Assembly (NCBI GenBank): GCA_016213775.1
Contig: JACQZR010000226.1
Coordinates: forward strand, 1-56,504
DNA: 56,504 bases
Direction of reading: 5' to 3'
Origin: Acidobacteriota bacterium
GTDB taxonomy: Bacteria; Acidobacteriota; Terriglobia; Bryobacterales; Bryobacteraceae
Part shown: one piece after another, positions 14,652 through 38,217 of the stretch
Layout: each line of letters starts with the position of its first letter
How positions within the stretch are numbered: the stretch's first letter is position 1
Notes under the pieces: generated by a model
Told to the model about the DNA's origin: nothing
The model's input: only the letters and a program-made list of their open reading frames with translations
The model's database searches: none
Translations under genes and position numbers: made by a program

Positions 14652-14699
14652 TCGGGATCGGAAACCTCTGGGATCTTCAGTATAACCCACACCTCAGGA

Positions 14700-15586: not shown

Positions 15587-15873
15587 AGAATCGCTCCCGG
15601 CTGTGTTCGTTTGATGTGCAGCTCATCCACGATGGCGACAATGCACGTATCCGTCACTACCTCTTGCGGTAAATACGGAAAGCTCGATTCCTTCCCCCTG
15701 CAGCAGTACACCAACTCCCCCGCCCCGGTACCCACGCAATCAGTCACCACGATGCGGCGGCCCGTGGGCGCGCCCTCCGGAGTAACCGGCTGCACGATCA
15801 GCAGGCGCTGTGCCTCGAGCTTCGGATCCTTCACCGTAGCCCACACATTGCCTACCACTTTCGCCAAAAACAT
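15580..15873 (-). CDS. Microcompartment vertex protein, EutN/CcmL family (BMC-P), copy 2
   Basis: A 97-residue EutN/CcmL pentamer protein: MFLAKVVGNVWATVKDP, LLIVQPVTPEG, VTDCVGTGAGELVYCCRG and CIVAIVDEL. It differs from its siblings by a cysteine-rich lumen-side stretch (Cys-Cys after VY, plus Cys in VTDC and at the C-terminus) and by replacing the usual PID(A/M) motif with VTDTCIVAIVDEL. It lies two bases after copy 3 and overlaps copy 1. Confidence 0.92.
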   Translation of the reverse strand: MFLAKVVGNVWATVKDPKLEAQRLLIVQPVTPEGAPTGRRIVVTDCVGTGAGELVYCCRGKESSFPYLPQEVVTDTCIVAIVDELHIKRTQPGAILC

Positions 15874-15875
15874 AA

Positions 15876-16184
15876 TCAGCTCTTCTTGTTTTTAGCAGGC
15901 CCGGGATCGTCCAGCGAAAGACTGTCTACAATCCCGATGATTGCGCTGTCGACAGGATGGTTCGCACACCCTTCGGCCATACGCGCGGACGACCCGGCGA
16001 CGGCAATCACCAGTTCCTTGTTCCCCGCGCTCACCGTATCCACCGACACCACGTATCCGGCCTCGTCCTTGAGGCCGCCGCCGGGCTCCGGCGAAACCGG
16101 TTTGATGATGAGCAGCTTCTTGCCCTCCAATCGAGGGTCCTTGCGCGTGGCGACGACGGTGCCCACCACTCGGGCGAGAATCAT
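15876..16184 (-). CDS. Microcompartment vertex protein, EutN/CcmL family (BMC-P), copy 3
   Basis: A 102-residue EutN/CcmL protein: MILARVVGTVVATRKDP, KLLIIKPVSPEPGGG, VSVDTVSAGNKELVIAVAGSSAR and PVDSAIIGIVD, with a charged tail ending in KNKKS. It follows the hexamer gene after six bases. It is the closest of the three to the canonical family sequence, so it is the likeliest major vertex protein. Confidence 0.94.
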   Translation of the reverse strand: MILARVVGTVVATRKDPRLEGKKLLIIKPVSPEPGGGLKDEAGYVVSVDTVSAGNKELVIAVAGSSARMAEGCANHPVDSAIIGIVDSLSLDDPGPAKNKKS

Positions 16185-16190
16185 TGTCGC

Positions 16191-16475
16191 TTACTTCGTG
16201 CTCTTGCCGATTGGCAGAACATCTTCCAGGCTCGGATGCGGACGCGGAATCACGTGCACCGCGATCAGTTCGCCCACACGCCGCGCCGCGGCAGCGCCTG
16301 CATCGGTGGCCGCGCGCACTGCCGCGACATCCCCGCGCACCAGCGCCGTCACGTAACCGGAGCCGATCTTTTCCCAACCGACAAGGGTCACCTTGGCGGC
16401 CTTCACCATCGCATCGGATGCTTCGATCATTGCGACCAGTCCGCGCGTTTCAATCATTCCAAGAGCTTCGCCCAT
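16191..16475 (-). CDS. Microcompartment shell hexamer protein (BMC-H)
   Basis: A 94-residue single BMC domain: [26 protein letters not shown], then the pore-region motif [22 protein letters not shown] and [13 protein letters not shown]-like helix, with [14 protein letters not shown] at the end. Six subunits form the flat tiles of a microcompartment facet, and the GSG segment lines the central pore. It is the only hexamer gene in the window; shells normally mix several, so others are probably encoded elsewhere. It lies between the aldolase and the three vertex genes. Confidence 0.96.
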
Positions 16476-16530
16476 CTATCCTCCAACAGAATTCTTCATG
16501 ATTCCGGTTACCGCCAGGGAAAGTCAAGCG

Positions 16531-17310
16531 CTATGCGAGGCCTCGCGCCTTCAACGCTTCATCCACCAGCGCGATCAACTCTTCCCGCGTCACCACAAAC
16601 TTGTCACTACTGGCGTCGCTGTCGTCAGCCGTCACCGGACATCCCGGTTCAGCCCCAGCCCTCGCTTTCACGCCGTAGCGCGTCCGCGAATCAAACAATT
16701 TGTCCACTTCCTGTTTCGGCAGCAGCGTCGGCCCGCCGAGCATCTCCGCCACAAAATTGATGCGCGCGAAATGCTCCACCGTCTCCATACGGAAAAACGC
16801 CTGAAACACATCCTCGCCATACGACACCGCGCCGTGATTGGCCAACAGCAGCGCATTGTATTTCGGAATCAGCGGCAGCATCGGATCCGTCAAAGCCGGA
16901 GTGCCCGGCAGGCCGTAGGCGGCCAGCGGCACGCATCCCAACCCGATGATCACTTCCGGCAGGAGCGCCTGGTTCAACGACTTGCCCGCCGTGGCAAAAC
17001 CCGTCGCCACCGGCGGATGCGCATGCACCACCGCCCGCACATCCGGACGCAGCCCGTAAATCGTCAGGTGCATCATGATCTCGGACGTCCGCTCGCGCCG
17101 GCCTTCCAGCTTGTTACCCTGCAGGTCCACGATGATCAAGTCATCGGGTTTCATCATGCCCTTACAGATCATCGTGGGGGTACAAAGCACCCGCCCTTCG
17201 TCCAGCCGGAAACTGATGTTCCCGTCGTTGGCCGCGACCCAACCCTTTTGGAACACCAGGCGTCCTACTTCAACAATTTCATCGCGCAATTCACGTTCGG
17301 TCTTCGGCAT
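16531..17310 (-). CDS. Class II aldolase with probable encapsulation peptide
   Basis: A 259-residue class II aldolase/adducin-family enzyme. NDGNISFRL, the zinc ligands in VHAHPPVA and LLANHGAVSYG, and an acidic residue in LPEV match L-fuculose- or L-rhamnulose-1-phosphate aldolases, which give dihydroxyacetone phosphate and lactaldehyde. After the catalytic domain, a flexible linker (about residues 220-235, rich in Asp/Ser) leads to the amphipathic helix TREELIALVDEALKARGLA, the layout of an encapsulation peptide that docks enzymes inside a shell. This fits an aldolase-type (PVM-like) microcompartment. I use ATG 17310; a GTG at 17343 lacks a usable ribosome site. Confidence 0.88.
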   Translation of the reverse strand: MPKTERELRDEIVEVGRLVFQKGWVAANDGNISFRLDEGRVLCTPTMICKGMMKPDDLIIVDLQGNKLEGRRERTSEIMMHLTIYGLRPDVRAVVHAHPPVATGFATAGKSLNQALLPEVIIGLGCVPLAAYGLPGTPALTDPMLPLIPKYNALLLANHGAVSYGEDVFQAFFRMETVEHFARINFVAEMLGGPTLLPKQEVDKLFDSRTRYGVKARAGAEPGCPVTADDSDASSDKFVVTREELIALVDEALKARGLA

Positions 17311-17359
17311 TTCAGGAACTTCTGATTGTATCAGGTAAGGCACCCTCTGACAGGCGCCA

Positions 17360-18493
17360 TCAGAGCCGTTCGATCAACGTGGCGTTGGCGAGCCCGCCGC
17401 CTTCGCACATCGTCTGCAAACCCCACCGGCCTCCAGTCCGGCGCAACTCGTGTACCAGCGTCGTCATCAGCCGCGCGCCACTTGCGCCCAGCGGATGCCC
17501 CAATGCCACAGCACCACCATTGACGTTCACTTTCGCCAGGTCCGCACTCAACTCGCGCTGCCACGCCAGCGGTACACATGCGAAGGCTTCGTTCACTTCG
17601 AAAAGGTCAATGTCCGCCATCTGCAATCCGGCACGTCGCAGCAGCTTGCGCGTCGCCGGCATTGGCGCGGACAACATGATCACCGGATCGTCACCCGCCA
17701 ACGCAAACTCCGCCACCCGCGCCAGGGGCGTCAGCCCCAACTCCTGCGCGGTCTTGGCGTCCATCAACAGCACCGCCGCTGCGCCATCGCTGATCTGCGA
17801 TGAATTCGCTGCCGTCACAACGCCACCGGCCTGAAACGCGGGTTTCAACGTCGCCATCTTCTGGAGCGTAGTGTCTTTGCGAATCCCCTCGTCTTTTTCG
17901 AGCCCCGGTACTGCTACAAATTGCGAGGCAAACCGCCCTTCCTCCGTCGCCCGAGCCGCCCGCTGATGGCTCTCGAAGCTGAAGGCGTCCAGATCCTCTC
18001 GCGTGATTCCGTACCGCGCCGCCAGCATCTCCGCGCCAATCCCCTGATGGAACGTGACACCCTTGTACCGCTCCATCATCATCGGACCGAACGGCATTCC
18101 CGGTCCGTTGCTGTTCGACCCCATCGGCACTCGCGTCATGCACTCCACGCCGCAGGCAATCGCAATGTCATAGCTGCCCGCCAAAATCCCCTGCGCCGCG
18201 AAGTGAACGGCCTGCTGGCTTGATCCGCATTGCCGGTCCACGCTGGTTGCGGGCACCGATTCCGGGAAGCCCGCCGCCAGTACCGCATTGCGCGCAACGT
18301 TCACACCCTGCTCGCCCACCTGCATTACACACCCGCCAATCACGTCATCCACGCGCGCGGCGTCCAAGCCATTGCGCGCCACCAGCGCCTGCAACGTGTG
18401 TGCCAGCAGATCCACAGGGTGCCACCCCTTTAACGCTCCTTCACGCTTTCCAATTGGAGTGCGCACGGCGTCGACAATGACAGCTTCTCGCAT
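17360..18493 (-). CDS. Thiolase family acyl-CoA acetyltransferase
   Basis: A 377-residue thiolase with all catalytic positions: Cys89 in SVDRQCGSSQ, His333 in ALGHPLGASG and Cys363 in CEGGGLANATL. Thiolases cleave or form 3-ketoacyl-CoA; degradative and biosynthetic types cannot be told apart here. The stop lies 49 bases before the aldolase ATG (16 before the alternative GTG), so it is probably co-transcribed with the microcompartment genes. No encapsulation-like tail is visible, so it is not clearly a lumen enzyme. Confidence 0.93.
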   Translation of the reverse strand: MREAVIVDAVRTPIGKREGALKGWHPVDLLAHTLQALVARNGLDAARVDDVIGGCVMQVGEQGVNVARNAVLAAGFPESVPATSVDRQCGSSQQAVHFAAQGILAGSYDIAIACGVECMTRVPMGSNSNGPGMPFGPMMMERYKGVTFHQGIGAEMLAARYGITREDLDAFSFESHQRAARATEEGRFASQFVAVPGLEKDEGIRKDTTLQKMATLKPAFQAGGVVTAANSSQISDGAAAVLLMDAKTAQELGLTPLARVAEFALAGDDPVIMLSAPMPATRKLLRRAGLQMADIDLFEVNEAFACVPLAWQRELSADLAKVNVNGGAVALGHPLGASGARLMTTLVHELRRTGGRWGLQTMCEGGGLANATLIERL

Positions 18494-18516
18494 ATTCGCT
18501 AATGGTACTCCAACCC

Positions 18517-19416
18517 CTACAATCCCTCCGGCAGAAGCTCCTTCGCCGACTTCTCAATCCCCGCGATTGCATACAGGTTCCGGTGAATCGTCTCGCAAAT
18601 ATCATCGAGCGGCAGGTCGTTGTCATCCTGGCCGAACGGACCCTCTATCTCGACGCCGATCTCCTCAATTCCGAAGAAAACGTAGGAGATCACCAGGACA
18701 TCCAAAATCGTGAACCAGCCATAGCTCGACAACAGGGCGAATGGGAGGCTGAAGCAATACAGCACAAGCGCTCTGCGTAAGTGCACGACATAGGCGAACG
18801 GCAGCGGCGTCTTCCGGATGCGCTCACAGCCGCCCAGTTGATTCACCAACTGGCTGATATTCGCATCCAACGCCGTGTAGACAATGTTCGAAATCATTCC
18901 CCGCTCACGGGCGTTATTCAGGACCGCCGTCATGCGTGAAGCCACGGCCAGCGCCGGATGTTGCGCCTCCGCCACCGCCGCCACATCGGATGTCAACAGG
19001 TCCGCAGACAGCGGCCCAAGGCCGTTCTGGCCACGCAGCCCGCGCGCCAACGCAAACGGAAACACCGCGGTCCATCGAGTCAGTTCGAACAGCAATTCCC
19101 GATCCCCGCCAAGGTGAACCGCCGCCCCGCGAATGAGATTGCGCGAATCATTGACGATGCCGCCCCACAACCTGCGCCCTTCCCAATAACGGTCGTAGGA
19201 GGCATTCGTGCGAAAGACCAGCAACAACCCTAGCGCCGTCCCGACCAACGCATGCAGCAATGAGGGAATGGCCATCGGGAACCACAGGTGGTGGACCACC
19301 ACCACCCCAATCGTCCACAACACACACAGCGAAACTCGTCCACTGATCTCTTTCACCAAAGAGCCGCGGACATCAAAGAAATGGTCGGTCCATTTATGGG
19401 GATCGTAGTGAATCAC
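18517..19416 (-). CDS. Bestrophin family anion channel
   Basis: Protein of about 299 residues matching the bacterial bestrophin (UPF0187) family: IHYDPHKWTDHFF at the start, then a hydrophobic pair of helices, FRTNASYDRYWEGRRLWGGIVNDSRNL near residue 70, and YGWFTILDVLVISYVFFGIEEIGVEIEGPFG, followed by the polar C-terminal helix. Bacterial homologues form pentameric ion channels. I place the start at GTG 19416, the usual family start; upstream TTG at 19515 would add 33 unrelated residues. It is divergent from the ABC transporter genes. Confidence 0.85.
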   Translation of the reverse strand: MIHYDPHKWTDHFFDVRGSLVKEISGRVSLCVLWTIGVVVVHHLWFPMAIPSLLHALVGTALGLLLVFRTNASYDRYWEGRRLWGGIVNDSRNLIRGAAVHLGGDRELLFELTRWTAVFPFALARGLRGQNGLGPLSADLLTSDVAAVAEAQHPALAVASRMTAVLNNARERGMISNIVYTALDANISQLVNQLGGCERIRKTPLPFAYVVHLRRALVLYCFSLPFALLSSYGWFTILDVLVISYVFFGIEEIGVEIEGPFGQDDNDLPLDDICETIHRNLYAIAGIEKSAKELLPEGL

Positions 19417-19543
19417 GGCGTTAAGAAGCGGAACAGCACAACGGCGAGGCCAACCTGCGGAACGCGTGACCTCTCTCCACTTTATCGCGACCCTCTCAAT
19501 TCCTGCACTCCTCAACCCGCCTCGGGTAAACTAACGTAGTTCG

Positions 19544-21052
19544 ATGCTTCTCCAACTCTCCGGCATTCAGAAGCGCTTCGGCGGTGTTGTCGCTCTCAAA
19601 AACGGCAACCTCACCGTCAATCCCGGCGAAGTCCACCTGCTGCTCGGCGAAAACGGCGCCGGCAAATCCACGCTGATGAAGATCGTCGCCGGCCTCTACC
19701 AACCCGACGGCGGCGACTTCCTCTGGAAAGGCCAAAAAGCTACTTTCACTACACCTGCCGACGCCTCCCACGCCGGCATCGCGATGGTCCACCAGGAGTC
19801 CCTGCTCGCCCCTCACCTCAGCATCGCCGAAAACATCTTCCTCGGCCGCGAAGAACGCCATCCTCTCGGCTGGGTCAATCGCGCCAAAACCCTCGACGCC
19901 GCCCGCCGCCTCATTGAAGAACATCACTTCCCGCTGAACGCCGAATGGCGCGTGGAAAAGCTCAGCCCCGCCGGCAAACAATTGGTCGAAATCTGCCGCG
20001 CCATCCAACACGGGTCATCTCTTCTCATCTTCGACGAACCCACCAGTTCTCTTTCCGATGCCGAGACGCAGGAAGTCTTCCGCATCGTGCGCACCCTGCG
20101 CGAACGCAAGATGGGCGTCATCTACATCACCCACCGCCTGGAAGAACTCCGCGCCGTCGGCGACCGCGTCACCATCCTCCGCGACGGCGACACCGTCCAC
20201 CATTGCCCTCTGTCCGAAATCACCAACGACCGCATCATTCAGCACATGGTGGGCCGCGACCTCGGCACAATGTATAGACGCGAGTCACGCCCGCCCGGCG
20301 AAGAGCGGCTCCGCGTCCAGGGAGTCACCCGCAAACCCATCCTCGACAACGTGTCGCTCTCCGTACGCGAAGGGGAAATCGTAGGCCTCGCCGGCTTGAT
20401 CGGCGCGGGCCGCACCGAACTCTGCCGCGCCATCTTCGGCCTCGACCCCATCGACCACGGAATCATCACCGTCTCCGGCAAACCTGTCCACGTGGGCTCC
20501 CCACGCGAGGCCGTCCAACACGGCATTGCCCTCATCCCCGAGGACCGCCAGAAAACCGGGCTCGCAACGGCGCTCCCCATAAGCCACAACCTCACCGTCG
20601 CCAACATCTCGAAAGTCAGCCGTTTGGGCTGGCTGCTCGATCACCCCGCCGAAAAACGGCTCACTGCAGACTACGCCGCCAAGCTCCGCCTCAGATACGA
20701 CTCTCCCGCGCAGCTCGCCGGGCGTCTCAGCGGCGGCAATCAGCAGAAGGTCGTCATCGCGAAATGGCTCGTCCGCGGCGCACAAGTGTTCCTCTTCGAT
20801 GAGCCCACTCGCGGCATCGACGTCGGCGCGAAAGTGGAAGTCTACGAAGTGATCGACCAGCTCGCCCGCGCCGGCGCCGCCATCCTCATGGTGAGTTCCG
20901 AACTCCCGGAACTCCTCCAAGTGGCCGATCGCATTGTCGTCATGCGTCAGGGCCGCATCACCGGCGAACTCCCCGGTCATACCACACAGGAAGAAATCAT
21001 GAAACTGGCCACGTTGCACGACTGCGGCGCATTGCTTGGAGAACACACCTAA
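19544..21052 (+). CDS. Sugar ABC transporter ATP-binding protein (RbsA/MglA type, two NBDs)
   Basis: A 502-residue double ATPase. NBD1 has Walker A GENGAGKST, signature LSPAGKQ and Walker B LLIFDEPTSSL. NBD2 has the degenerate Walker A GLIGAGRTE usual for this family, signature LSGGNQQK and FLFDEPTRGID. Members energise ribose, xylose, galactose or autoinducer uptake with a single permease. Its stop overlaps the permease start (TAATG). There is no periplasmic sugar-binding protein gene in the window, so the substrate cannot be inferred; proximity to the aldolase/microcompartment genes suggests a pentose or deoxyhexose, but that is only context. Confidence 0.93.
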   Translation: MLLQLSGIQKRFGGVVALKNGNLTVNPGEVHLLLGENGAGKSTLMKIVAGLYQPDGGDFLWKGQKATFTTPADASHAGIAMVHQESLLAPHLSIAENIFLGREERHPLGWVNRAKTLDAARRLIEEHHFPLNAEWRVEKLSPAGKQLVEICRAIQHGSSLLIFDEPTSSLSDAETQEVFRIVRTLRERKMGVIYITHRLEELRAVGDRVTILRDGDTVHHCPLSEITNDRIIQHMVGRDLGTMYRRESRPPGEERLRVQGVTRKPILDNVSLSVREGEIVGLAGLIGAGRTELCRAIFGLDPIDHGIITVSGKPVHVGSPREAVQHGIALIPEDRQKTGLATALPISHNLTVANISKVSRLGWLLDHPAEKRLTADYAAKLRLRYDSPAQLAGRLSGGNQQKVVIAKWLVRGAQVFLFDEPTRGIDVGAKVEVYEVIDQLARAGAAILMVSSELPELLQVADRIVVMRQGRITGELPGHTTQEEIMKLATLHDCGALLGEHT

Positions 21053-21975
21053 TGTTGCAGCGCCTTCTTCCCTTCCTCACCTTGATTGTCTTGTTCGTCG
21101 GACTCTCCATCGCCTCGCCCGACCATTTCCTCTCACAGACGAACCTCTCGAGCGTCGTCCGCCAGACCGCCGTCATCAACCTTATGGCGCTTGGCATGAC
21201 GCTCGTCATCATCTCCGGCGGCATCGATCTCTCCGTCGGGTCCATCCTTGCTATGGGCGGCCTTCTCGGCACCAAGATGATGGCGAAAGGCTACCCCATC
21301 GGATTCGGCATCTTCATCGGCATCCTCACCGGCAGCGCCTGCGGCTTCGTCAACGGCATCCTCACCACGCGCCTCAGGATCAACCCGTTCATCGTCACAC
21401 TCGGCACGCTCGGCATCATCCGCGGCGTCACCCTCATCATCTCCAACGGGCTGCCCGTACACGAAATCCCACCCGCCTTCTCCTACCTCGGCGAAGGCAC
21501 ACTGCTCGGCGTCCCGTTCGTTCTCTGGGTGTTGGTGTTCTGCGCGGTCGCCGTCCACATCATCCTCGAACACACGCGTCTTGGCCGCTACACATTCTCC
21601 ATCGGAAGCAATACCGATGCCGCCTATTACGCAGGCATCCCCGTTGCTTTCCACACCACTGCGGTCTACGTCATCTGTGGCATGCTCACCGGGCTCGGCG
21701 GCATGATCGAAGCATCGCGCCTCATGACCGGCCAGCCCACCGCGGGCCAGGGCTACGAACTGCAGGCCATTGCCGCGGTGGTCATCGGGGGCGGATCGCT
21801 GCGCGGTGGCGAAGGCAGCGTCGTCGGCACCCTCATCGGCGCATTCATCATGGGCCTGCTCTCCAACGGCAGCGACCTCCTCGGCATCAGCCCCTACGTC
21901 CAACAAGCCATCATCGGAGCAGTCATCATCATTGCCGTTTCATTCGACGAGCTCCGCAAACGAAAGATCACCTAA
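21052..21975 (+). CDS. Sugar ABC transporter permease (RbsC/XylH type)
   Basis: A 307-residue polytopic membrane protein of the BPD_transp_2 family, with GGIDLSVGSILAMGG (about residues 62-76), GILTTRLRINPFIVTLGT and ELQAIAAVVIGGGSLRGGEGSVVGT, all hallmark segments of ribose-type permeases. About eight or nine membrane helices. It begins inside the ATPase stop codon and ends three bases before the threonine synthase start, so the three genes form one transcription unit. Confidence 0.94.
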   Translation: MLQRLLPFLTLIVLFVGLSIASPDHFLSQTNLSSVVRQTAVINLMALGMTLVIISGGIDLSVGSILAMGGLLGTKMMAKGYPIGFGIFIGILTGSACGFVNGILTTRLRINPFIVTLGTLGIIRGVTLIISNGLPVHEIPPAFSYLGEGTLLGVPFVLWVLVFCAVAVHIILEHTRLGRYTFSIGSNTDAAYYAGIPVAFHTTAVYVICGMLTGLGGMIEASRLMTGQPTAGQGYELQAIAAVVIGGGSLRGGEGSVVGTLIGAFIMGLLSNGSDLLGISPYVQQAIIGAVIIIAVSFDELRKRKIT

Positions 21976-21977
21976 GC

Positions 21978-23204
21978 ATGAACACCATCTCCCATCTCGA
22001 ATGCAGCCACACCGGCGAACGCTACGAAGCGGGGCAGGTTCACAATCTGTCCAAAGCCGGCTACCCGCTGCTGGTCAAGTACGATCTCGAAAAGGCGCGC
22101 GAAGGCTGGAGCCGCGATTGGATCAACAACGCGCCAGCCAACATGTGGCGCTACGCCCCCGTACTTCCCGTCACCAAACCCGCGTCCATCGTTTCCCTTG
22201 GCGAAGGCATGACGCCAATGATCCGTACGCGCCGCCTCGGCGAAAAGCTGGGCGCAACGAACCTGTGGGTCAAGGATGACGGAGTCAACCCCACCGGCTC
22301 GTTCAAGGCTCGCGGACTCTCCTGCGCTATCTCGATGGCCAAGGAACTCGGCCTGACCAAGCTCGCCATCCCCTCCGCCGGCAACGCCGCCAGCGCTCTC
22401 GCAGCCTACGCCGCCGCAGCCGGCATGGAAGCCCACATCTACATGCCGCAGGATGTTCCACAGGCCAATTACATCGAGTGCAAAGCCTTCGGCGCGCACG
22501 TCACCCTCGTCGATGGCCTCATCAGCGACTGCGCCAAAATCGTCGCCGCCAAGTCCCCTGTCGAAGGTTGGTTCGACGTGTCCACCCTCAAGGAGCCGTA
22601 CCGCATCGAAGGCAAAAAGACCATGGGGTACGAAATCGCCGAGCAGTTCCAGTGGACCCTCCCCGGAGCCATCCTCTACCCCACTGGCGGCGGCGTCGGC
22701 ATCATCGGCATGTGGAAAGCGTTCCAGGAACTGGAAACCCTCGGCTGGATCACCGGCAAGAAACCCAAGATGATCGCCGTGCAAGCAGAGGGCTGCATGC
22801 CAGTGGTGCGCGCCTACCTCAAGGGTGCCGAGCGCAGCGAGTTCTTCGAGAACGCCTCCACCGTCGCCAGCGGACTCCGCGTCCCGAAACCCCTCGGCGA
22901 CTTCCTTATCTTAAAGGCCGTGCGCGATAGTGGCGGCACGGCAATCGCGGTATCCGACGCCGAAGCCCTCCACGCCGGTGTCGACCTCGCGACAACCGAA
23001 GGCATCTTCGCCGCCCCCGAAGGAGCCGCCTGCGTGGCAGCTATTCCGAAACTCCTTGCTTCCGGCGCACTCGAGGCCGGCGAAAAGATCGTCATCTATA
23101 ACACCGGAGCCGGCCTCAAATATCTCGAAGCCTACTCCACGCGCTTCCCCCGCGTCCCCGGCGGCGAAAGCGATAAACTCGGCGGCCTCATCACCCCGCG
23201 CTAG
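21978..23204 (+). CDS. thrC: Threonine synthase
   Basis: A 408-residue fold-type II PLP enzyme. PLP-binding Lys110 lies in NPTGSFKARGL, the phosphate-loop segment is IPSAGNAASALAAY, and a second glycine loop is YPTGGGVGIIGMW. It converts O-phosphohomoserine to threonine in the cytosol. The N-terminal ECSHTGERY segment is a partial rubredoxin-like knuckle, common in the longer threonine synthases. It starts with ATG just after the permease stop; sharing a transcript with a sugar transporter is unusual for thrC. It is the last gene on the C-rich side of the skew switch. Confidence 0.93.
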   Translation: MNTISHLECSHTGERYEAGQVHNLSKAGYPLLVKYDLEKAREGWSRDWINNAPANMWRYAPVLPVTKPASIVSLGEGMTPMIRTRRLGEKLGATNLWVKDDGVNPTGSFKARGLSCAISMAKELGLTKLAIPSAGNAASALAAYAAAAGMEAHIYMPQDVPQANYIECKAFGAHVTLVDGLISDCAKIVAAKSPVEGWFDVSTLKEPYRIEGKKTMGYEIAEQFQWTLPGAILYPTGGGVGIIGMWKAFQELETLGWITGKKPKMIAVQAEGCMPVVRAYLKGAERSEFFENASTVASGLRVPKPLGDFLILKAVRDSGGTAIAVSDAEALHAGVDLATTEGIFAAPEGAACVAAIPKLLASGALEAGEKIVIYNTGAGLKYLEAYSTRFPRVPGGESDKLGGLITPR

Positions 23205-23225
23205 CCGCTGCACTCCGCATGTGTG

Positions 23226-23242
23226 GCGGACTTCAGTCCCGC
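23226..23242. repeat. Palindrome matching the element at 11510-11527
   Basis: GCGGACTTCAGTCCCGC is an inverted repeat and, on the minus strand, reads GCGGGACTGAAGTCCGC, the same as the 11510-11527 copy except for one extra base and one change. It lies in non-coding sequence directly after thrC, again at a gene end. Confidence 0.55.
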
Positions 23243-23245
23243 GAA

Positions 23246-23530
23246 CCCTGGCGTCGCCGCCGTGTATTGGGCGATGCCTGGCTGCGCAACCTGGAAACAC
23301 TCCTGAACGAAGAAGGCGGCGGCGATCTCATCTTCTTCACTGGCGACGCAGCCCCATCCGGCAACCCCGCCGGATACGACGAAGTAACGTCCTTCTGAGA
23401 AGCCCTCGGCACCGAACTTATTCTCGGCCCTGACTGCATCTTTCTCACGCTGGATGAAGGGCATTGGCAAGAACCCGCCGTTCGGCTTCGGCCCCTCCTG
23501 GAAGGACGCCATCCTCGCGAGTTCGAGCCC
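23246..23530 (+). pseudogene. Remnant of a calcineurin-like metallophosphoesterase
   Basis: One reading frame gives WLRNLETLLNEEGGGDLI, FFTGDAAPSGNPAGYDEV, TSF, then TGA at 23396-23398, and continues EALGTELILGPDCIFLTLDEGHW. This resembles the GD(I/L)AxSGxxxEYxxxxxFLxxL segment of metallophosphoesterase domains that sit at the head of large modular proteins. The upstream metal-binding motif (DxH), the NHD motif and any start codon with ribosome site are absent, so it is a fragment. The base composition changes from C-rich to G-rich near 23520, so the downstream part (23530-23735) is probably unrelated. I see no gene there. Confidence 0.4.
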
Positions 23531-23735
23531 AGGCAAGGGGAGCGCAGTTTGGATAGGCGAGCCGGTCTCGCTCGGGATGGTACGAACGCGGATGGGGTGT
23601 ACCGGTTCGAGCGAAGGGGGGATTCATCGCGCGAGAGTTGCAGACGGCGCCATCCTCCTCCATCCTCCTCCGATTCCGCAGCAGTTCGGAGATGAGCGTG
23701 TGCTACGCTGAAGTCAATCCCCTTTGCCTTCCGTC

Positions 23736-24353
23736 ATGATCAAAGTCTGCGGTATCACCAATATTGAGGACGCTTCTGCCGCGGTTGAGGATGGTGTTGA
23801 TGCGGTAGGCTTCAACTTCTTTCCAGGCAGCAAACGGTATGTCACTCCGGAAAAGGCGGCAATGATTGCGCTTGCGCTTCCGGCTGGTGTCCTGAAGGCC
23901 GGAGTGTTTGTGAATGAGCGTGCGGAGACGGTGCAAGAAATTGCGCGGGTGTGTGGATTGGATGTGGCGCAACTGCACGGGGACGAACGGCCGGAAGATG
24001 CTCCGAAGGGCGTGCGGATCTGGAAGGCGTTTCGAGTGGAGGCAGGGTTCCGGTTAGAGGCAGCGATGGTGAGCTTTCCCGAAGCAGAGGCGTTGCTGCT
24101 GGATGGTCCCGCGGGGGGTGAATTTGGCGGAGCCGGCATACCGTTTCTGTGGCGGGTGGCGTTGGGAGCGCCGCGAAAGGTGGTGCTGGCCGGCGGGCTC
24201 GATGGAAGGAACGTGCAGGCGGCGATTGCGGCGGCACGGCCGTGGGGCGTGGACGCATGCTCGAAGTTGGAATCGTCACCGGGAATCAAAGACCGAGGGA
24301 AGATGAGAGAATTTATCAGCGCCGCACGGGCGGCCGTGGTGGAGACAGCATGA
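23736..24353 (+). CDS. trpF: Phosphoribosylanthranilate isomerase
   Basis: A 205-residue TIM-barrel enzyme with MIKVCGIT at the N-terminus (catalytic Cys), [29 protein letters not shown] and [18 protein letters not shown] (catalytic Asp, phosphate site). It performs the third step of tryptophan synthesis. I use ATG 23736; an in-frame TTG at 23724 adds four residues. ATGA overlap with trpB at the 3' end. No other trp gene except trpB is in the window. Confidence 0.95.
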
Positions 24354-25576
24354 ACTCGCAGAGTGCAATTTTGGAGACGACGCTGCCGGACGAACGGGGG
24401 CATTTCGGGCCGTTTGGGGGACGCTATGTTCCCGAAACGTTGATGGCCCCGCTGGAGGAGTTGGAGGCGGCGTATCTGGAAGCGCGGCAGGATCCGGCGT
24501 TTCGCAAAGAGTTGAATGCACTGCTGGCGGATTACGCCGGGCGGCCGACGCCTTTGTATCCCGCCACGCGGTTGTCGGCGCACTTGGGTGGCGCGAAGAT
24601 CTACCTGAAACGCGAAGACCTGCTGCACACGGGCGCGCACAAGATCAACAACTGTCTCGGGCAGGCGCTGCTGGCGAGGCGGATGGGGAAGAAGCGAGTG
24701 ATCGCGGAGACGGGGGCAGGTCAGCACGGCGTGGCGTCGGCAACGGTGGCTGCGCTGTTCGGGTTGGAATGCGTGGTGTACATGGGCGAGGAAGACATGC
24801 GGCGGCAACGGCTGAATGTGTTCCGGATGCGCATGTTGGGTGCGAGGGTGGTGGGAGTGTCGTCCGGATCGCGGACGTTGAAGGATGCGATCAATGAAGC
24901 AATGCGGGATTGGGTGACGAACGTGTCGTCGACTCATTATCTATTGGGGTCGGCGTTGGGCGCGCATCCGTATCCGATGATGGTTCGCGATTTTCACCGT
25001 GTGATTGGGGAGGAAGCGCGGAAGCAGATTCTGGAAGCAGAGGGGTGCCTGCCGAATACGATTTATGCCTGCGTTGGCGGCGGCAGCAATGCGATCGGGA
25101 TATTTCATCCGTTCCTGCAGGATGCGGCGGTAAAGCTTATCGGGATTGAGGCCGGCGGGTGCGGGACGAAGCTTGGCGAACATGCGGCGCGTTTTTCCGG
25201 TGGTGCGCCGGGCGTGCTGCACGGGGCGTACTCGTACCTGCTGCAGAATGAGGACGGTCAGGTGTCGTTGACGCATTCGGTGTCGGCGGGATTGGACTAT
25301 GCGCTGGTTGGGCCGGAGCACGCCTGGCTGCATGATAATCAGCGGGCTGAGTATGTGTCGGTAACGGATGAAGAGGCGCTGCAGGCGGCGCGGACGCTGG
25401 CGCGGACGGAAGGGATTATTCCAGCGCTGGAATCGGCGCATGCGGTGGCGGAGGCGATGCGGCGTGCACCGATGTGCGCGGGAGAGGTTCACATCGTGAA
25501 CCTGTCGGGGCGTGGAGATAAGGACGTGGACATTTACCGCGAGAACTTCATCGAGTTAGACGCAGTGCTGGCGTAG
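24350..25576 (+). CDS. trpB: Tryptophan synthase beta chain
   Basis: A 408-residue PLP enzyme of normal length: [12 protein letters not shown], the PLP Lys98 in [29 protein letters not shown] phosphate loop and LSGRGDKD at the end. It condenses indole with serine in the TrpA-TrpB tunnel complex. Coupled to trpF by ATGA overlap. The expected trpA is not downstream; decayed genes lie there instead, so trpA must be elsewhere. Confidence 0.97.
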
Positions 25577-25582
25577 GAACTT

Positions 25583-25921
25583 GTGCTGGAAACGCCGCGG
25601 CTGTTGATTCGGGGATGGCGGAATTCGGATCGTGCGCCGTTTGCGGCGATGAATGCGGATCCGGAAGTGATGCGGTACTTCCCCGCCCTGCTGACATTGG
25701 AAGAAACGGATGCAATGCTGGAGCGCAACCGTGCTCACTTTGCGCGGCATGGGTTTGGGCTCTGGGCTGTGGAGTTGAAGGGGCCGGGCGAGTTCGTTGG
25801 GTTTATCGGCCTGAGTGTACCGGCGTTTGAGGCGCACTTTACGCCTTGTGTGGAGATCGGATGGAGGCTGGGGGCGTCATGCTTGGGTTGTTGGCCAGGT
25901 AAACAGATCCACCAACCTTAG
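25583..25921 (+). pseudogene. Truncated and frameshifted GNAT acetyltransferase
   Basis: Starts as a RimJ-type GNAT protein: ETPRLLIRGWRNSD, AAMNADPEVMRYFP, then CVEIGWRL. Here the frame breaks. In the next frame the sequence reads RHAWVVGQ, the expected continuation (family pattern ARHAWGxGxATEA), and then homology ends about 20 codons later. The acetyl-CoA-binding segment and the C-terminal half are missing, so the product cannot be active. The start is GTG seven bases after trpB. Confidence 0.7.
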
Positions 25922-26273
25922 GTGATGCGTAGCTTGAGCACGAACGCGATCAACGTCATGGAGCGGTTTATCCACGAGTACCCCGGGTTTGGGAAGTCGG
26001 GCGCGGATGTGAGGGCGTTGTTCCGCGTGCTTCGCGCGGCGTTTCCGGATCTGCGGGTGGAGGTTCACGCGCAGTTTTTGGACGGCGACGGGCAGCGGGT
26101 CCACCAGCAAGACATTTCATGGGACACATCGCGGGGAGTTCGCGGGCGTTGCGCCAACGGGGAAAGCGGTGGCGATCCGGGTGATGGATTTCGTGCGGGT
26201 GAGCGATGGGAAGATGCGTGAGCATTGGAATGTTGTCGATGTCGCGGGATTGCTGGGACAGTTGCGGAGTTGA
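25922..26273 (+). pseudogene. SnoaL-like / ester cyclase family pseudogene
   Basis: The first frame gives VMERFIHEYPGF, then ADVRALFRVLRAAFPDLRVE and VHAQFLDGDGQRV. From about 26100 the homology moves to another frame: SKTFHGTHRGEFAGVAPTG, then KAVAIRVMDFVRVSDGKMRE and HWNVVDVAGLLGQLRS before TGA at 26271-26273. Together they make one complete SnoaL-type cone-fold protein broken by a single-base indel near 26090-26105. The N-terminal end also seems shortened, since it abuts the broken GNAT gene directly. This points to a deletion joining two decaying genes. Confidence 0.75.
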
Positions 26274-26301
26274 GGCCGGAGCCCGCGGTAACAATAGCCC
26301 G

Positions 26302-27057
26302 ATGCCTAACTATACGGAACTTGCTGAATCTCTGGCGAAATCCCTGGAACTGACGACCGCTGCGATCGCGGTGCGGTTTGCCGGAGTGGATGATGCCACT
26401 CCGATGCACGCGGGGGCGGCGCCGGCCGGGTGCCAGTTCTGGGAACGCGGGGCGACGGCGACGTTCGCCACGACAGCGGCGGATCATGCGCTTTGCTCGA
26501 TCGGGGTGCACACGCACAACCTGGAACCGACACCGGCGCAGCAGAAAGACTTGATGGACACGCTGCGGGTGTTGGGGGAGTTGACATATGTCCGGGCAGA
26601 CGACGTCCCGCAGATTCCGGTGCTGCGCGAGCGGCCGGCGAAGGTGGTGTACGGGCCTTTGGCGGATGCGGAGGTGGCACCGGATGTCGTGCTGTTGTTC
26701 GTGAGGGCGGATCAGACGCTGGTGTTGTCGGAGGCGACGCAGCAGTTGGAAGGGCGGAATGCGCCGGCAATGGGGCGACCGGCTTGCGCGATCGTACCGC
26801 AAGCAGTGAATACGCAGGGGGCAGCGTTGAGCCTGGGTTGTTGCGGGGCTCGGGCCTACCTGGATGTGTTTACGCCGGACGTGGCGATTTTTGCAATCCC
26901 GGGGGCGCGGTTGGAGGCTTACGCGGAGAGGATCGGGAAACTGGCTGCGGCGAACGCGATGCTTGGGCGCTTCCATGCGTCGCGGCGGGCGGCGGTGGAA
27001 GCGGGGGAGAGGCCGGCGATTGAGGAGTCGCTGGCGGCGTTCCAGGCCGCGGGGTGA
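26302..27057 (+). CDS. DUF169 family protein
   Basis: A 251-residue DUF169 protein. It shows the family's AIAVRF opening, CQFWERG with the conserved Cys, HALCSIGVHTHN, VVYGPL and SLGCCGARAYL with paired Cys, and a C-terminal helix. Function unknown; the conserved cysteines suggest metal or redox chemistry. It starts at ATG 26302 and converges with fabH, the stop codons lying nine bases apart. Confidence 0.85.
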   Translation: MPNYTELAESLAKSLELTTAAIAVRFAGVDDATPMHAGAAPAGCQFWERGATATFATTAADHALCSIGVHTHNLEPTPAQQKDLMDTLRVLGELTYVRADDVPQIPVLRERPAKVVYGPLADAEVAPDVVLLFVRADQTLVLSEATQQLEGRNAPAMGRPACAIVPQAVNTQGAALSLGCCGARAYLDVFTPDVAIFAIPGARLEAYAERIGKLAAANAMLGRFHASRRAAVEAGERPAIEESLAAFQAAG

Positions 27058-27066
27058 TGTTTCCGG

Positions 27067-28083
27067 TTAGACGGGCGGACCGTTGGGGGAGTCCATTTGC
27101 CAGCGCCAGAGGTTGGCGCCGACGGTGAAACCCGCGCCGACGGCGGCGAACAGGACGATATCCCCCTTCCTGATCTTGCCCTGGGTCCAGGCGTCGCGGG
27201 TCGCGAGGGGGATGGTCGCTCCGGTGGTGTTCCCGTAGCGGTTGATGTTGATGAGCACCTTCTCGGGGGGTATGCCGAGGCGATCGGCGGCGGCGGTGAT
27301 GATGCGCCGGTTGGCCTGATGGGGGATCAGCATGGCGATGTCATTGATGGTGAGGTTGTGTTTGGCGAGAAGATCACGACTCACTTCGTACATTTTCCGG
27401 ACGGCGTATTTGAAGACCTGCTGGCCTTCCTGATGGACGGAGTGCATGTCCTGGTCGATGGTGTCATGACTGGCGGGCATGCGGCTGCCGCCGGCGGGCA
27501 TTCTGAGGAAGTCGCCGCCAGAGCCGTCGATTTCGTTGAGGTGTCCGAGGAAGCCGGCTTCGGCGGGATCGTCGGTGGCTTCGACAAGCACGGCGCCGGC
27601 TGCATCCCCAAACAGGACACAGGTGGCACGATCCTTGTAGTTGAGAATTCGGGACATGGTGTCGGCGCCGATGACGAGGACGCGCTTGTGGGTGCCGCCC
27701 ATAATGAAGTGGGCAGCGGTGGTGAGACCGAAGACGAAGCCGGAACAGGCGGCGATGAGATCGAAGCCCCAGGCGCCGCGAGCACCGATGCGGTTCTGCA
27801 CCAGGCATGCCGTGGCGGGGAAAAGCATGTCGGGGGTGACGGTGCACACGAGGACGGCATCGACGGTATTGGCGGGGATGCCGCGTTGTTCCAGGACGAT
27901 GCGGGCGGCCTCGACGGCCATGTCGGAAGTGGCAACATCCTTGGGGGCGATGTGGCGCTGCTCGATGCCAGTGCGTTCAACGATCCAATCATGGCTGGTA
28001 TCGACAATACGTTCGAGATCCTGGTTGGTCATGACCCCGGAAGGAACGTAACAACCGAGGGCCGAAATCTTTGCGTGCGGCAA
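27067..28083 (-). CDS. fabH: 3-oxoacyl-[acyl-carrier-protein] synthase III (KAS III)
   Basis: A 338-residue FabH with the full triad: Cys113 in DLIAACSGF, His255 in IPHQANRR and Asn285 in NRYGNTTGA. It starts fatty-acid synthesis by condensing acetyl-CoA with malonyl-ACP. The start is TTG 28083, supported by AGGAG eight bases upstream. Alone here, outside a fab cluster, so it could serve a specialised acyl chain rather than bulk fatty-acid synthesis. Confidence 0.94.
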   Translation of the reverse strand: MPHAKISALGCYVPSGVMTNQDLERIVDTSHDWIVERTGIEQRHIAPKDVATSDMAVEAARIVLEQRGIPANTVDAVLVCTVTPDMLFPATACLVQNRIGARGAWGFDLIAACSGFVFGLTTAAHFIMGGTHKRVLVIGADTMSRILNYKDRATCVLFGDAAGAVLVEATDDPAEAGFLGHLNEIDGSGGDFLRMPAGGSRMPASHDTIDQDMHSVHQEGQQVFKYAVRKMYEVSRDLLAKHNLTINDIAMLIPHQANRRIITAAADRLGIPPEKVLININRYGNTTGATIPLATRDAWTQGKIRKGDIVLFAAVGAGFTVGANLWRWQMDSPNGPPV

Positions 28084-28182
28084 AAGCTGTCTCCTGTTTC
28101 ATCCGGGTAGTCCGGCACGTCATCTGGTTCGGCGTGCAGCCCGGTGAATTGCTGTAACTCTCTATGGTACATTCGGGAGCGA

Positions 28183-28938
28183 ATGCAAGGAAACCTTTCC
28201 GCAGCGACTGGCATCGCATGCGCAGCGACTGGTGTCGCACCCACAGCGGAGAGTCTGATCGCGGGGGTTTTCCGGCAACTGCGTCCGCGGACGCCGATTC
28301 CGGAAATCCGGGTGGAATTCCGGGATTTCGCGGGGATCACGAGCACGGTGGAGTGGAAAGGCGGGGTGCTGCGGATGCAGATTTCGGATGTGCTGGCGCA
28401 GGCGCCGGCGGACGTGATCGAGGCGCTGGGATTCATCCTGATGGGGAAGATGCTGAAGAAGCCGGTGGCGGCGCGGTTCCGGGACCGGTACCGGCGGTAT
28501 CTGAACCGGCGGGATGTGGTGGAGGCGGCAGAGAAGACAAGGCGGAGCCGTGGACGGAAACAGCTCCAGCCGGCCCAGGGGCGGCACTTCGATCTGAAGG
28601 GTCTCTTTGAGGAGTTGAATTTCCGGTATTTTCACGGATTGATGTCGAGGCCGGAACTCGGGTGGACGCCGCGGGAGTCACGGACGATTCTCGGGCATTA
28701 CGATCCGGCGCATCATGCGATTGTGATCAGCCGGACGCTGGACCGCGCGGATGTGCCGAAGGAAGTTGTGGCGTACGTGCTGTATCACGAGATGCTGCAT
28801 TTACGGTATCCGGTGAAGCGGGCGGCGGGGCGGAGGTGCGTTCATACGGAGGAATTCCGGAAAGCCGAGGAGATGTTTGAGGGGTTCAAGGGAGCCGAAC
28901 GCTGGATTAAGCGGGTATTTGGAGGAAGGGATCAATGA
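28183..28938 (+). CDS. SprT-like / M48-type zinc metalloprotease
   Basis: A 251-residue protein with an HExxH zinc motif in VLYHEMLHL (about residue 202), then a later His in CVHTEEFRKAE that would be the third ligand. The region FEELNFRYFHGLMSRPELGWTP matches the SprT-like fold entrance. The N-terminal 100 residues are conserved-looking but unassigned. No signal peptide, so cytosolic. Start ATG 28183 has a GGGAG ribosome site at 28176; an upstream GTG adds 13 Cys-rich residues and is unlikely. Confidence 0.75.
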   Translation: MQGNLSAATGIACAATGVAPTAESLIAGVFRQLRPRTPIPEIRVEFRDFAGITSTVEWKGGVLRMQISDVLAQAPADVIEALGFILMGKMLKKPVAARFRDRYRRYLNRRDVVEAAEKTRRSRGRKQLQPAQGRHFDLKGLFEELNFRYFHGLMSRPELGWTPRESRTILGHYDPAHHAIVISRTLDRADVPKEVVAYVLYHEMLHLRYPVKRAAGRRCVHTEEFRKAEEMFEGFKGAERWIKRVFGGRDQ

Positions 28939-28993
28939 AAGGCAAAGGCCCAGCAGAGGAAGCCGGGCCCGGGTTCATATTCGTTGTTGCGAG

Positions 28994-29536
28994 TTAAGCG
29001 GCTGAAGGGGCGATGGCAGGCATGGCAACCTGCAACTGGGCGACCTGTTCGCGAAGCTGGCGGATGGCTTCGGTGACACTGGAAGTGTCGAGGCCGTCGA
29101 ATCCGAGGCGGAACAGGAAGAGGCGATAACGGACCTGTACCAAGCGCACGGAGAACAACATGCGCTGTTGGAGGAGGGAGCGGGTGACCATGGGGTTGTC
29201 GATTCCGCTCTGAACGACGAGGTGGCGAAGCTGGCTATGAAGACGATGGAATTCCAGTTGGACGCTACCCAGGTAAGCACTGAAGAGGGAGGCGCGCTGA
29301 GCACGGAGACGAGTCAGCATTTCGGGGTGAAAGCCCGGTTGACGTTGGAGGAATTCGAAATCCTCTGAAGCCAGCAGGCGCTGCATGGGAGCGAGATTGA
29401 GAGAAGAGGCCGAAGTTGCGACGACATTGGGGGTACCGGGACCAGGCCGCAACATACGGTGAAAGATGTAAGCCGAGATGGCGAGCAAAACTACAAGGAC
29501 GCCACCGGCGACAAAGACCAAGGCCGAGTTTTCCAT
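28994..29536 (-). CDS. Membrane-anchored protein of unknown function
   Basis: A 180-residue protein with one N-terminal membrane segment (FVAGGVLVVLLAISAYIF, residues 8-25) and a helical, charged cytoplasmic or periplasmic part rich in Arg/Gln/Leu (RLRAQRASLFSAYLGSVQLE). Ends in an Ala/Pro-rich tail. No family recognised. Convergent with the SprT-like gene and 92 bases downstream of the next membrane protein gene on the same strand, with which it may be co-transcribed. Confidence 0.6.
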   Translation of the reverse strand: MENSALVFVAGGVLVVLLAISAYIFHRMLRPGPGTPNVVATSASSLNLAPMQRLLASEDFEFLQRQPGFHPEMLTRLRAQRASLFSAYLGSVQLEFHRLHSQLRHLVVQSGIDNPMVTRSLLQQRMLFSVRLVQVRYRLFLFRLGFDGLDTSSVTEAIRQLREQVAQLQVAMPAIAPSAA

Positions 29537-29628
29537 ATAATCTTCCGTTCCAGGATATCCGAAGCTTGCGTGGAATGCAATCGGGTTTTCGCGATTTGAC
29601 AAAAGGAATTCACGTATTCCAGTTGGGA

Positions 29629-30414
29629 TTACCGCTGACCCGCGCGGGCGAGAGCGGAGTTGATGCCTTCCAACTGAGTGAGCAGTTTTTCCTGATCGCC
29701 GGGATTCCAGCGGTGGCCAACCACCACGTCTACATGCTCTCCAGAGGGCTTCAGCAGGACGGCCCAGGTCACAACCAGGAGGCCCGATAAGCCGAGCCAG
29801 GCGACATCGACAAGTGCATATTGCTGCCGGGTGACGTAGGCGCGGATGAGAGTCGACAGTGCTTTGCAGAGGAAGTAGGTTGTGAAGAGAAAAAAGTGGA
29901 CGACGACATTGCGCGGGAGCCGGATCGGGTACCAGGTGAGGACTAGGGTACCCAGGAGGATGGAAGCGGTAAGAGCGATGTAGACACTTCGCTCGGCGGC
30001 GAAGAAGAGCGGGAGACGCCACTGGGGTCCCAGTTTGGCGGCAGCGGTTGCCTGGAGGTAGAAGAGAAGGGACCCGCCGACGGCGCAGACGATAACGATT
30101 CCGAGCAGTGCCCAGCGGCTGACGGTGCGAATGGCTGGATATTGCCGGAGGACGAGTGAAAACAGCTCGGCAATGACGAGACCCATGAGAAACGCAACGA
30201 CAGCCTGAGTAAACATGTAGAAGTAGGCGTAGACGTCGCGTGGGAGGGTGACGGCACGGAGAAAGAGGTCACGGGCAATTGTGAAGCAGAGGAAGGCGAA
30301 GAAGGATCTATAGACGACGGCCAATCCTGAGAACCAAAGGCGGACCGCAAGGACGACGGTAGCAATCGAGCCGAATATCCAGAAGGCCTGGGTGATGGCT
30401 TGTAGATTGTCCAT
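29629..30414 (-). CDS. Seven-helix integral membrane protein, unknown function
   Basis: A 261-residue protein with about seven hydrophobic segments (for example FGSIATVVLAVRLWFSGLAVV, ALLGIVIVCAVGGSLLFYL-like and YIALTASILLGTLVLTW). The C-terminal polar tail (VVVGHRWNPGDQEKLLTQL) is probably cytoplasmic. I do not recognise a family. Start ATG 30414 follows GGAGAG; an upstream in-frame start adds 16 residues. Confidence 0.6.
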   Translation of the reverse strand: MDNLQAITQAFWIFGSIATVVLAVRLWFSGLAVVYRSFFAFLCFTIARDLFLRAVTLPRDVYAYFYMFTQAVVAFLMGLVIAELFSLVLRQYPAIRTVSRWALLGIVIVCAVGGSLLFYLQATAAAKLGPQWRLPLFFAAERSVYIALTASILLGTLVLTWYPIRLPRNVVVHFFLFTTYFLCKALSTLIRAYVTRQQYALVDVAWLGLSGLLVVTWAVLLKPSGEHVDVVVGHRWNPGDQEKLLTQLEGINSALARAGQR

Positions 30415-30521
30415 ATCGCGGACCGGTCTCTCCACTTGAGATGCCAGGAATCCTGACACCACCTACATTGCAGTATATCATCAGCTTCGTGCCATTTTTT
30501 CAACAAATTGCAAGGCAGGGC

Positions 30522-30558
30522 AAAAGAAAAATGCGGCAGGGGAACAGACCCTGCCGCA
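30522..30558 (-). terminator. Rho-independent terminator, minus strand
   Basis: A perfect 10-base stem (TGCGGCAGGG at 30532-30541 with CCCTGCCGCA at 30549-30558) and a 7-base loop, followed on the minus strand by TTTTTCTTTT. It lies 114 bases downstream of the small secreted peptide gene and stops that transcript before the membrane protein gene. Between gene and terminator an 11-base direct repeat ACTGCAACGGT occurs at 30572-30582 and 30605-30615. Confidence 0.85.
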
Positions 30559-30671
30559 CGTTTCAAAATCGACTGCAACGGTACACGTCCTCGATTGCGA
30601 TTGCACTGCAACGGTTGACAACGAGGGGGGGGACGCCGCCTCTGTCGACGAGACGTGTGGGCAACCGAGAG

Positions 30672-30812
30672 CTAATTGCCGCCGCCGCTGCCAGAGGGGG
30701 GAGGAGCAGGATCGTCGCAGGGGAGGCATTCCGGCATGGGAATATCAATGGCGCTGATGGTGGACACGCCGACCATGAGAAGGCCGAGAGCGAGGACGAG
30801 ACGTTTGAGCAT
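30672..30812 (-). CDS. Small secreted peptide (46 residues)
   Basis: A 46-codon gene: ATG 30812 to TAG 30672. Residues 1-21 form a complete signal peptide (MLKRLVLALGLLMVGVSTIS then Ala). The mature part is about 25 residues, IDIPMPECLPCDDPAPPPSG and a short Ser/Gly tail, with a CLPC cysteine pair. A GGAG ribosome site lies eight bases before the start, and a strong terminator follows downstream. No family is recognised; the features look like a released peptide (signal, bacteriocin-like or thiol-redox). A palindrome shared with the XRE-regulator region lies 100 bases upstream. Confidence 0.7.
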   Translation of the reverse strand: MLKRLVLALGLLMVGVSTISAIDIPMPECLPCDDPAPPPSGSGGGN

Positions 30813-30911
30813 TAGGATGATCTCCGCTTACGAAAGTGTTCCGGATGTATCCGGTTTGGGTTCGATTTGATGATAGTCGTTTTCATTCGATTTGCATCAC
30901 GAGGAGCAAAG

Positions 30912-30931
30912 GTTTTCGGAATTCAGAACAA
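30912..30931. promoter_or_regulatory. Probable operator, second copy of the XRE-linked palindrome
   Basis: GTTTTCGGAATTCAGAACAA matches the perfect palindrome at 32370-32389 in 16 of 20 positions, including the whole right arm TCAGAACAA. It sits between two divergent genes: 100 bases upstream of the secreted peptide start and 87 bases upstream of the 159-residue protein start. Confidence 0.55.
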
Positions 30932-31017
30932 GTCTGGGAATAGGTAAGGGGCTAGGTGGGCTAGTCCACCTCACCGGAACGTGTGCTGGTATACTGGGAT
31001 TCGCTTAGACTGACCGA

Positions 31018-31497
31018 GTGCTAGGGACACCCTTTGTCGTGAAGTGGAGTGAATCGAAATCGAAATCCCCGGCCGAGGCGGCCCGGGATCTCTGGCGTCA
31101 CACGCTCTCACAGATTCCGACGCTCTTCGGGAGGCTGGTGTACCTGGCATCGCTAAGGGATGTGAACACGGGCCAGTACGTGCATCACGGACTATCGACG
31201 GTGTTTGGACCGGACGTGGCCAACGCGGCGATGCGCAAGAGTCATGAAGAGGTGTTCGCGGAGTGGCTCGGTTACGGGCTGGAGGCGCAGCGCAGCGATC
31301 TGGAGTTTTACGTATCGGGGTTGGAGCCGCAGCGCAAGACCGTAGTGGAGAACTGGACGAAGCTGGAGCCTTTCCGGGCGCTGCCGCCGGAGACGGCACG
31401 GATGGTGGAGAAAGACCTGTTCTACTCGGATCTGGAGATGGTTCTCAGCCTGTTGAGGAACGAGCTCGGCGTTTCCTGGAATGGTCCAGGCGCATAG
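31018..31497 (+). CDS. Conserved-looking protein of unknown function (159 residues)
   Basis: Soluble, mostly helical protein with no signal peptide and no family I recognise (SPAEAARDLWRHTLSQIPTL near the start, then FGRLVYLASLRDVNTGQYVH; SDLEMVLSLLRNELGVSW near the end). Start is GTG 31018. A good -10 element TATACT lies at 30990-30995, though no clear -35 is visible. Its last 53 bases overlap the convergent XRE-regulator gene, so antisense overlap of the two messages is likely. Confidence 0.65.
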   Translation: MLGTPFVVKWSESKSKSPAEAARDLWRHTLSQIPTLFGRLVYLASLRDVNTGQYVHHGLSTVFGPDVANAAMRKSHEEVFAEWLGYGLEAQRSDLEFYVSGLEPQRKTVVENWTKLEPFRALPPETARMVEKDLFYSDLEMVLSLLRNELGVSWNGPGA

Positions 31498-32239: not shown

Positions 32240-32369
32240 GCTATGATGCTCTGCCGAGCGGTCTTGCTCGCTCCGTCTGACAGACGAACCGGCTGGATCG
32301 GATAACTGCACGGGTTTGTAAGGGATTATCGCGACCGGGAGCGCGCGGAGCAAGAGCGATTTGCATGCC

Positions 32370-32389
32370 TTGTTCTGATTTCAGAACAA
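32370..32389. promoter_or_regulatory. Perfect 9-bp-arm palindrome, probable operator
   Basis: TTGTTCTGATTTCAGAACAA has two perfect nine-base arms around TT. It lies 24 bases upstream of the ubiX start and 131 bases upstream of the XRE-regulator start, in the only space between these divergent genes. It is the natural candidate site for the regulator. A related copy is at 30912-30931. Confidence 0.65.
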
Positions 32390-32412
32390 ACGGGTAGTGA
32401 AGGAGGCGAGTT

Positions 32413-32979: not shown

Positions 32980-33000
32980 GCGGGGCGCGTGCGAGGATGG

Positions 33001-38202: not shown

Positions 38203-38217
38203 TCAATGGGCTCCTGA

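Follow-up and report, generated by a model that had tools for sequence, protein, structure and literature searches.

The window analysed here is a stretch of 56,504 nucleotides that makes up all of contig C149. The draft genome to which it belongs comprises 10.96 Mb in 314 unordered contigs and is 98.5% complete with an estimated contamination of 4.6%. On its plus strand thrC, encoding threonine synthase (21978..23204; NF006050 at 615.5 bits against a cut-off of 303, and PF00291), is followed by a decayed stretch of 531 bases in which no intact gene is recognised (23205..23735), and then by trpF (23736..24353; PF00697 over its cut-off, and NCBIfam trpF models that match below theirs), trpB (24350..25576; TIGR00263, 609 bits) and a GNAT-like open reading frame (ORF). 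Our home-made gene caller missed both thrC and trpF in the window. The best match to thrC in a relative is 81% identical at the DNA level, and the nearest named thrC loci come from MAGs that carry the labels Candidatus Solibacter usitatus, Bryobacterales or Acidobacteria, which marks the genome as that of a Bryobacterales-type acidobacterium.

The initial annotation had described the sequence between thrC and trpF as decayed, and this description holds: none of the six frames read across 23205-23735 is free of stops, and the plus strand at 23207..23395 retains the relic of a calcineurin-like metallophosphoesterase. The relic was recognised by its match to an ORF on contig C75 of a relative from another genus (G014), to which it is 70-72% identical over 53-56 residues; that ORF matches PF00149 at 7.5e-10, and the relic itself gives no Pfam match at E values up to 1. 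Matches to the relic occur in two of the 25 genomes searched, its own genome counted, and no plasmid-encoded relatives of it were found. The caller also listed a 111-residue ORF on the minus strand at 23201-23536. The stretch has no counterpart elsewhere in the genome (best match E 0.11), and the only repeats spanning it between 22,900 and 24,100 are one direct pair of 16 bases and one inverted pair of 18 bases at 78% identity. We thus found no mediating element, neither a second copy in the genome nor anything beyond these two short local repeat pairs, and repeat-mediated recombination was set aside on the same evidence.

Several other features of the window deserve mention. Behind trpB, at 25583-26260, the short GNAT-like ORF (112 residues) is accompanied by further broken-looking sequence, possibly a second scar that carries no skew change. 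ARAGORN reports a tRNA with no clear anticodon at 26360-26451, inside a DUF169 gene, which is probably false; no RNA family in the window scored over threshold. Because exosortase-type genes lie at the left end (an exosortase with DUF3485, 1-1579) and polysaccharide export genes at the right (45715-54736), we suspected a circular contig. This was rejected: the ends share no overlap of 11-400 bases and no 16-mers, and the ORF at the right end is not continued at the left.

Plus-strand GC skew changes sign at the decayed stretch. It is negative in every sliding 2-kb interval through 22001-24000 and positive in all from 23001-25000 onwards, its cumulative minimum falls at 23,516, and the maximum-likelihood change-point lies at 23,530 with a gain of 506 lnL units (support interval 23425..23573, the positions within 3 units of the best). 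The C-rich segment to the left, whose last gene is thrC, has a mean skew of -0.159 (1..23530), and the G-rich segment to the right, whose first gene is trpF, has a mean of +0.231 (23531..45600); the relic lies on the C-rich side of the scar. Within the joint, from about 23,600 to 23,900, skew stays close to zero; the step is thus sharp without being confined to a single base. Measured as the contrast between adjacent 10-kb stretches, the step (+0.395) is the largest of 901 overlapping positions on the 49 of 80 sampled pieces that reach 20 kb. By difference of segment means the window again comes first (0.390), with position 9690 of contig C215, which was added to the sample later than the 80-piece comparison, a close second (0.359). 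A smaller step at 45.6 kb, from +0.231 to +0.104, coincides with the start of a cluster of polysaccharide genes on the minus strand, which make up most of the last segment (45601..56504); it may reflect a later insertion or a difference in composition.

The reversal does not follow gene orientation. In a curated set of 34 genes (hand-picked ORFs that are Pfam-supported or long), plus-strand skew at third codon positions is negative in all 13 genes on the left and positive in all 21 on the right, and the values of the two sides do not overlap. Left of the joint the means are -0.426 for plus-strand genes (n=6) and -0.294 for minus-strand genes (n=7); right of it they are +0.447 (n=8) and +0.390 (n=13), respectively. 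Regression on the 34 genes gives a coefficient of +0.383 for side and -0.009 for gene strand (R2 0.90), and none of 5000 shuffles of the gene values matched the observed contrast between sides. Five automatically called ORFs with the opposite third-position sign were left out of the set because they are short or antisense: 6048-6311, 21972-22784 (antisense to thrC), 23201-23536, and 47707-48387 and 49816-50673 (each antisense to Pfam-supported genes). The flip is also present in sequence of the window outside called genes. Taken together, these data confirm what the initial annotation had claimed, an abrupt skew reversal at about 23.5 kb that is independent of gene orientation; the change-point, the clean sign change in sliding intervals and the flip on both gene strands leave a skew observation that is real, strong and placed correctly.

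Two skew switches would be expected of a chromosome that has a single origin and a single terminus. Counting sign changes with skew of at least 0.05 on both sides, we found 11 further switches in 1.85 Mb of the remaining genome (83 pieces, of which four under 6 kb were left unscanned). The sample is non-random, some contigs having been extended for their switches and two, C215 and C125, fetched for their trp or RRM genes. With the window there are 12 switches, six up and six down. Four of the other 11 flip on both gene strands (two on C28, one on C40 and one on C121, the dnaA contig), four are flanked on one side or both by genes of a single strand (C24, C6 and two on C17), and in the remaining three the gene strands disagree on one side (two on C215, one on C125). 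The switches that withstand the gene-strand comparison, the window included, number five, three up and two down, and three of them lie outside both the window and the dnaA region. Skew signs of whole pieces are balanced as well: beyond 0.03, 32 of the 83 pieces are positive and 32 negative. On C215, a stretch with a skew of -0.05 (4660-9690) lies between two G-rich stretches, directly behind a crp-like gene, and has the look of an insertion; within it the genes of the two strands give conflicting skew, and its long ORF reads like a TonB-dependent receptor with no NCBIfam match.

Gene order around thrC and trpF was compared with that in close relatives. A trpC homologue lies directly upstream of trpF in all eight same-genus loci examined, and a convergent RRM gene follows thrC in six of eight (in G007 and G010 the caller gave none); neither arrangement exists in the window, and both adjacencies are therefore broken here. 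By tblastn, trpC, trpF, trpB and trpA are contiguous in seven of the nine trp loci searched, four from the same genus (G001, G004, G005 and G010) and three from other genera (G013, G021 and G023). Downstream of trpA in these relatives come, in most cases, chorismate mutase-, aroF-, tyrA- and crp-like genes. The other two loci, from other genera (G014 and G032), yielded only trpB and trpA, with trpC and trpF not found on the stretches searched. The caller missed or misplaced trpF, trpB or trpA in several relatives, for which positions were taken from DNA matches, and the trpB rows of the tblastn comparison serve for place only, not for identity. None of the same-genus relatives carries the thrC-trpF joint. 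Ten of them yielded both loci, and in each the contig with thrC is not the one with trpFB, an observation that on its own says little when assemblies are drafts; G005 gave no thrC match. Skew in the relatives, read on the gene's own strand, ranges from -0.147 (G001) to +0.321 (G003) around thrC and from -0.115 (G011) to +0.083 (G008) around trpFB (n=8 each), so both loci occur in both strand polarities, many values being near zero. The thrC region of G003 has an unusually strong skew, +0.32 over 20 kb, and several other relatives are near zero; skew strength thus differs greatly within the genus.

The displaced neighbours were located on other contigs of the same genome. The trpC gene (C77:30527-31303, by its match to the IGPS family) lies inside a 57-kb contig, trpA with the chorismate mutase-, aroF-, tyrA- and crp-like genes lies behind tadA (C215:719-4673; the names chorismate mutase, tyrA and crp rest on matches below curated cut-offs), and the closest RRM copy, at 83% against 73% and 64% for the other two copies compared, lies inside its contig (C148:5987-6343); all three have other neighbours there. 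The trp operon of the relatives is therefore split into at least three places in this genome, namely trpC alone, trpF-trpB, and trpA with the aroF-, tyrA- and crp-like genes, and all of these genes are open frames. Because trpC, trpA and the RRM gene sit on other contigs, the loss of the thrC-RRM and trpC-trpF adjacencies does not depend on how C149 was assembled.

Several explanations of the skew switch were weighed, and it is mainly the neighbour evidence that sets their odds. Gene strand influences skew in many genomes, and gene orientation may explain the C215 and C125 switches in this very genome. For the window switch, a skew driven by transcription or codon use and following gene orientation is nonetheless as good as refuted by the 34-gene regression, in which strand contributes next to nothing beside side, and by the flip of both gene strands and of the sequence outside called genes. 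An origin of replication of any kind is very improbable. That the switch would mark the origin of the chromosome is suggested by its minus-to-plus direction, its sharpness and its size, which exceeds that at dnaA; we consider this reading hardly credible, since the only DnaA gene over the family cut-off lies on C121, where Pfam places gyrB, dnaN and dnaA in a row and where the skew makes its own minus-to-plus switch, a smaller one from -0.089 to +0.095, with the cumulative minimum at 8,413, within gyrB and roughly 4.4 kb away from the dnaA start. Just before dnaA, within 500 bases from 12,866, C121 has three DnaA boxes with one mismatch each, a density reached among the 80 pieces by C1 alone besides; the window reaches one box (at most one mismatch) per 500 bases and has no exact box. 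There is no AT-rich stretch at the switch (AT 0.34-0.50 per 50 bases across 23,451-23,750) and no Pfam match to dnaA or dnaN among the 38 window proteins and trpF. The initial annotation had noted the lack of all three features, with which our scans agree, and its alternative of an origin falls with the C121 locus. An origin that serves a second replicon, or one that is secondary and of an unfamiliar type, would have the right polarity and would suit a genome as large as this one, and an ORF of 110 residues at 54733-55065 comes near the NikA-like mobilization model PF21983 (1.1e-5, just below cut-off). The window nevertheless carries the only trpB and smpB of the genome over their cut-offs, its sole ParA-like match lies within a Wzz-type polysaccharide protein (51495-53714), Pfam scans of the window returned no Rep match, and half of the 12 switches share this polarity, which is therefore not special; we regard this reading, too, as highly doubtful. 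Equally slight is the chance that the joint is a working secondary origin that dispenses with DnaA boxes in a chromosome of about 11 Mb that fires at several places, in which case several of the minus-to-plus switches would be origins and not rearrangement scars.

The main rival is a false join, in which the assembler, near 23.5 kb, would have connected two sequences that are far apart in this genome or come from a very close one. The draft state in 314 contigs and the 4.6% estimated contamination are in its favour, as is the fact that the window step is the largest in the sample, and aberrant skew is used as a sign of misassembly in PMC7717575 (SkewIT) and in PMC7111523, a paper on curating genomes from metagenomes. 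We consider it unlikely, though well ahead of the origins. The RRM gene and trpC lie inside other contigs, so the adjacencies would be lost even without this join, provided that those contigs are themselves assembled correctly, and the joint region has no second genomic copy that could mislead an assembler. Both halves of the window also match the oligonucleotide make-up of the genome, but so do stretches of some relatives: several of these have values of 0.138-0.197, against a 95% point of 0.194 for the genome itself. Because relatives share this range, the tetranucleotide test cannot rule out a join with a close relative, and the rejection of a two-organism chimera, based on both halves falling inside the tetranucleotide spread of the genome, carries the same proviso. 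Contamination of the right half was rejected on other grounds. The right half is likely to be native, given that trpB (over its cut-off) and smpB are single-copy in the genome, and the trpF protein shares 56-63% identity with same-genus copies (four loci) as opposed to 51-54% with those of other genera (three loci). Weighing against this, the DNA of trpB is no closer to its own genus (up to 73%) than to G014 and G032 of other genera (73%).

We therefore favour, with some confidence, a recent rearrangement joint between oppositely replicated stretches of DNA. The segment that ends after thrC would formerly have had its plus strand as the lagging strand (C-rich), and the segment that begins before trpF, formerly with its plus strand leading (G-rich), would have been joined to it, each keeping the strand bias gained at its former position and the metallophosphoesterase relic sitting in the scar. 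An inversion, probably as one of several steps, may have made the joint. This reading takes the skew to reflect replication direction and the joint to be real in the cell. The joint also appears to be young relative to the time that skew needs to re-equilibrate, because the bias does not fade across the genes toward it; according to Merrikh and Merrikh 2018 (PMC6220195), turned DNA regains the bias of its new strand slowly, and by this argument undiminished skew beside the joint would imply youth.

A single simple inversion is not supported. It would predict a partner joint at which the RRM gene faces trpC and the skew turns from plus to minus, and, taking the C148 copy to be the RRM orthologue, this was not found: the two genes lie on different contigs with other neighbours, which calls for more than one event or another mechanism. 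Likewise, the additional cut of the trp operon between trpB and trpA points to several events. The initial annotation had leaned to an inversion or rearrangement joint over an origin; the broken adjacencies and the other switches of both signs support the rearrangement, and the simple inversion lacks such support, its partner joint not having been found. According to the Solibacter usitatus genome paper (PMC3174227), rearrangements there are mediated by abundant mobile elements and repeats, which fits the lineage, but the joint itself showed no such element.

Most probably, then, the skew switch is a commonplace trace of genome rearrangement rather than an origin. It points to a lineage with a high turnover of gene order, in which the trp operon is split and stretches of both skew signs are patched together. 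It also illustrates how an origin and a local reversal of skew can be distinguished in a draft assembly, using skew freed of gene strand, the gene neighbours conserved in relatives and, for control, the contig that holds dnaA.

Like a bacterial oriC, the window switch runs from minus to plus on the plus strand; unlike one, it has no dnaA-dnaN, box cluster or AT-rich element, and dnaA-dnaN-gyrB lie on C121. A GC-skew inversion at the breakpoint of a chromosomal inversion is described in Merrikh and Merrikh 2018 (PMC6220195), whose adaptive claim was tested by Liu and Zhang 2022 (PMC9098844). As at such a breakpoint, a turned stretch would keep its old skew and the sign changes at the joint; in contrast to it, a single inversion misfits the neighbours here, and the joint is known from one end alone. 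With the skew breaks ascribed to misassembly in PMC7717575 and PMC7111523 the switch shares a local reversal away from the dnaA region, and it differs from them in that the neighbours to be expected have also moved to other parts of the assembly and the joint region is single-copy.
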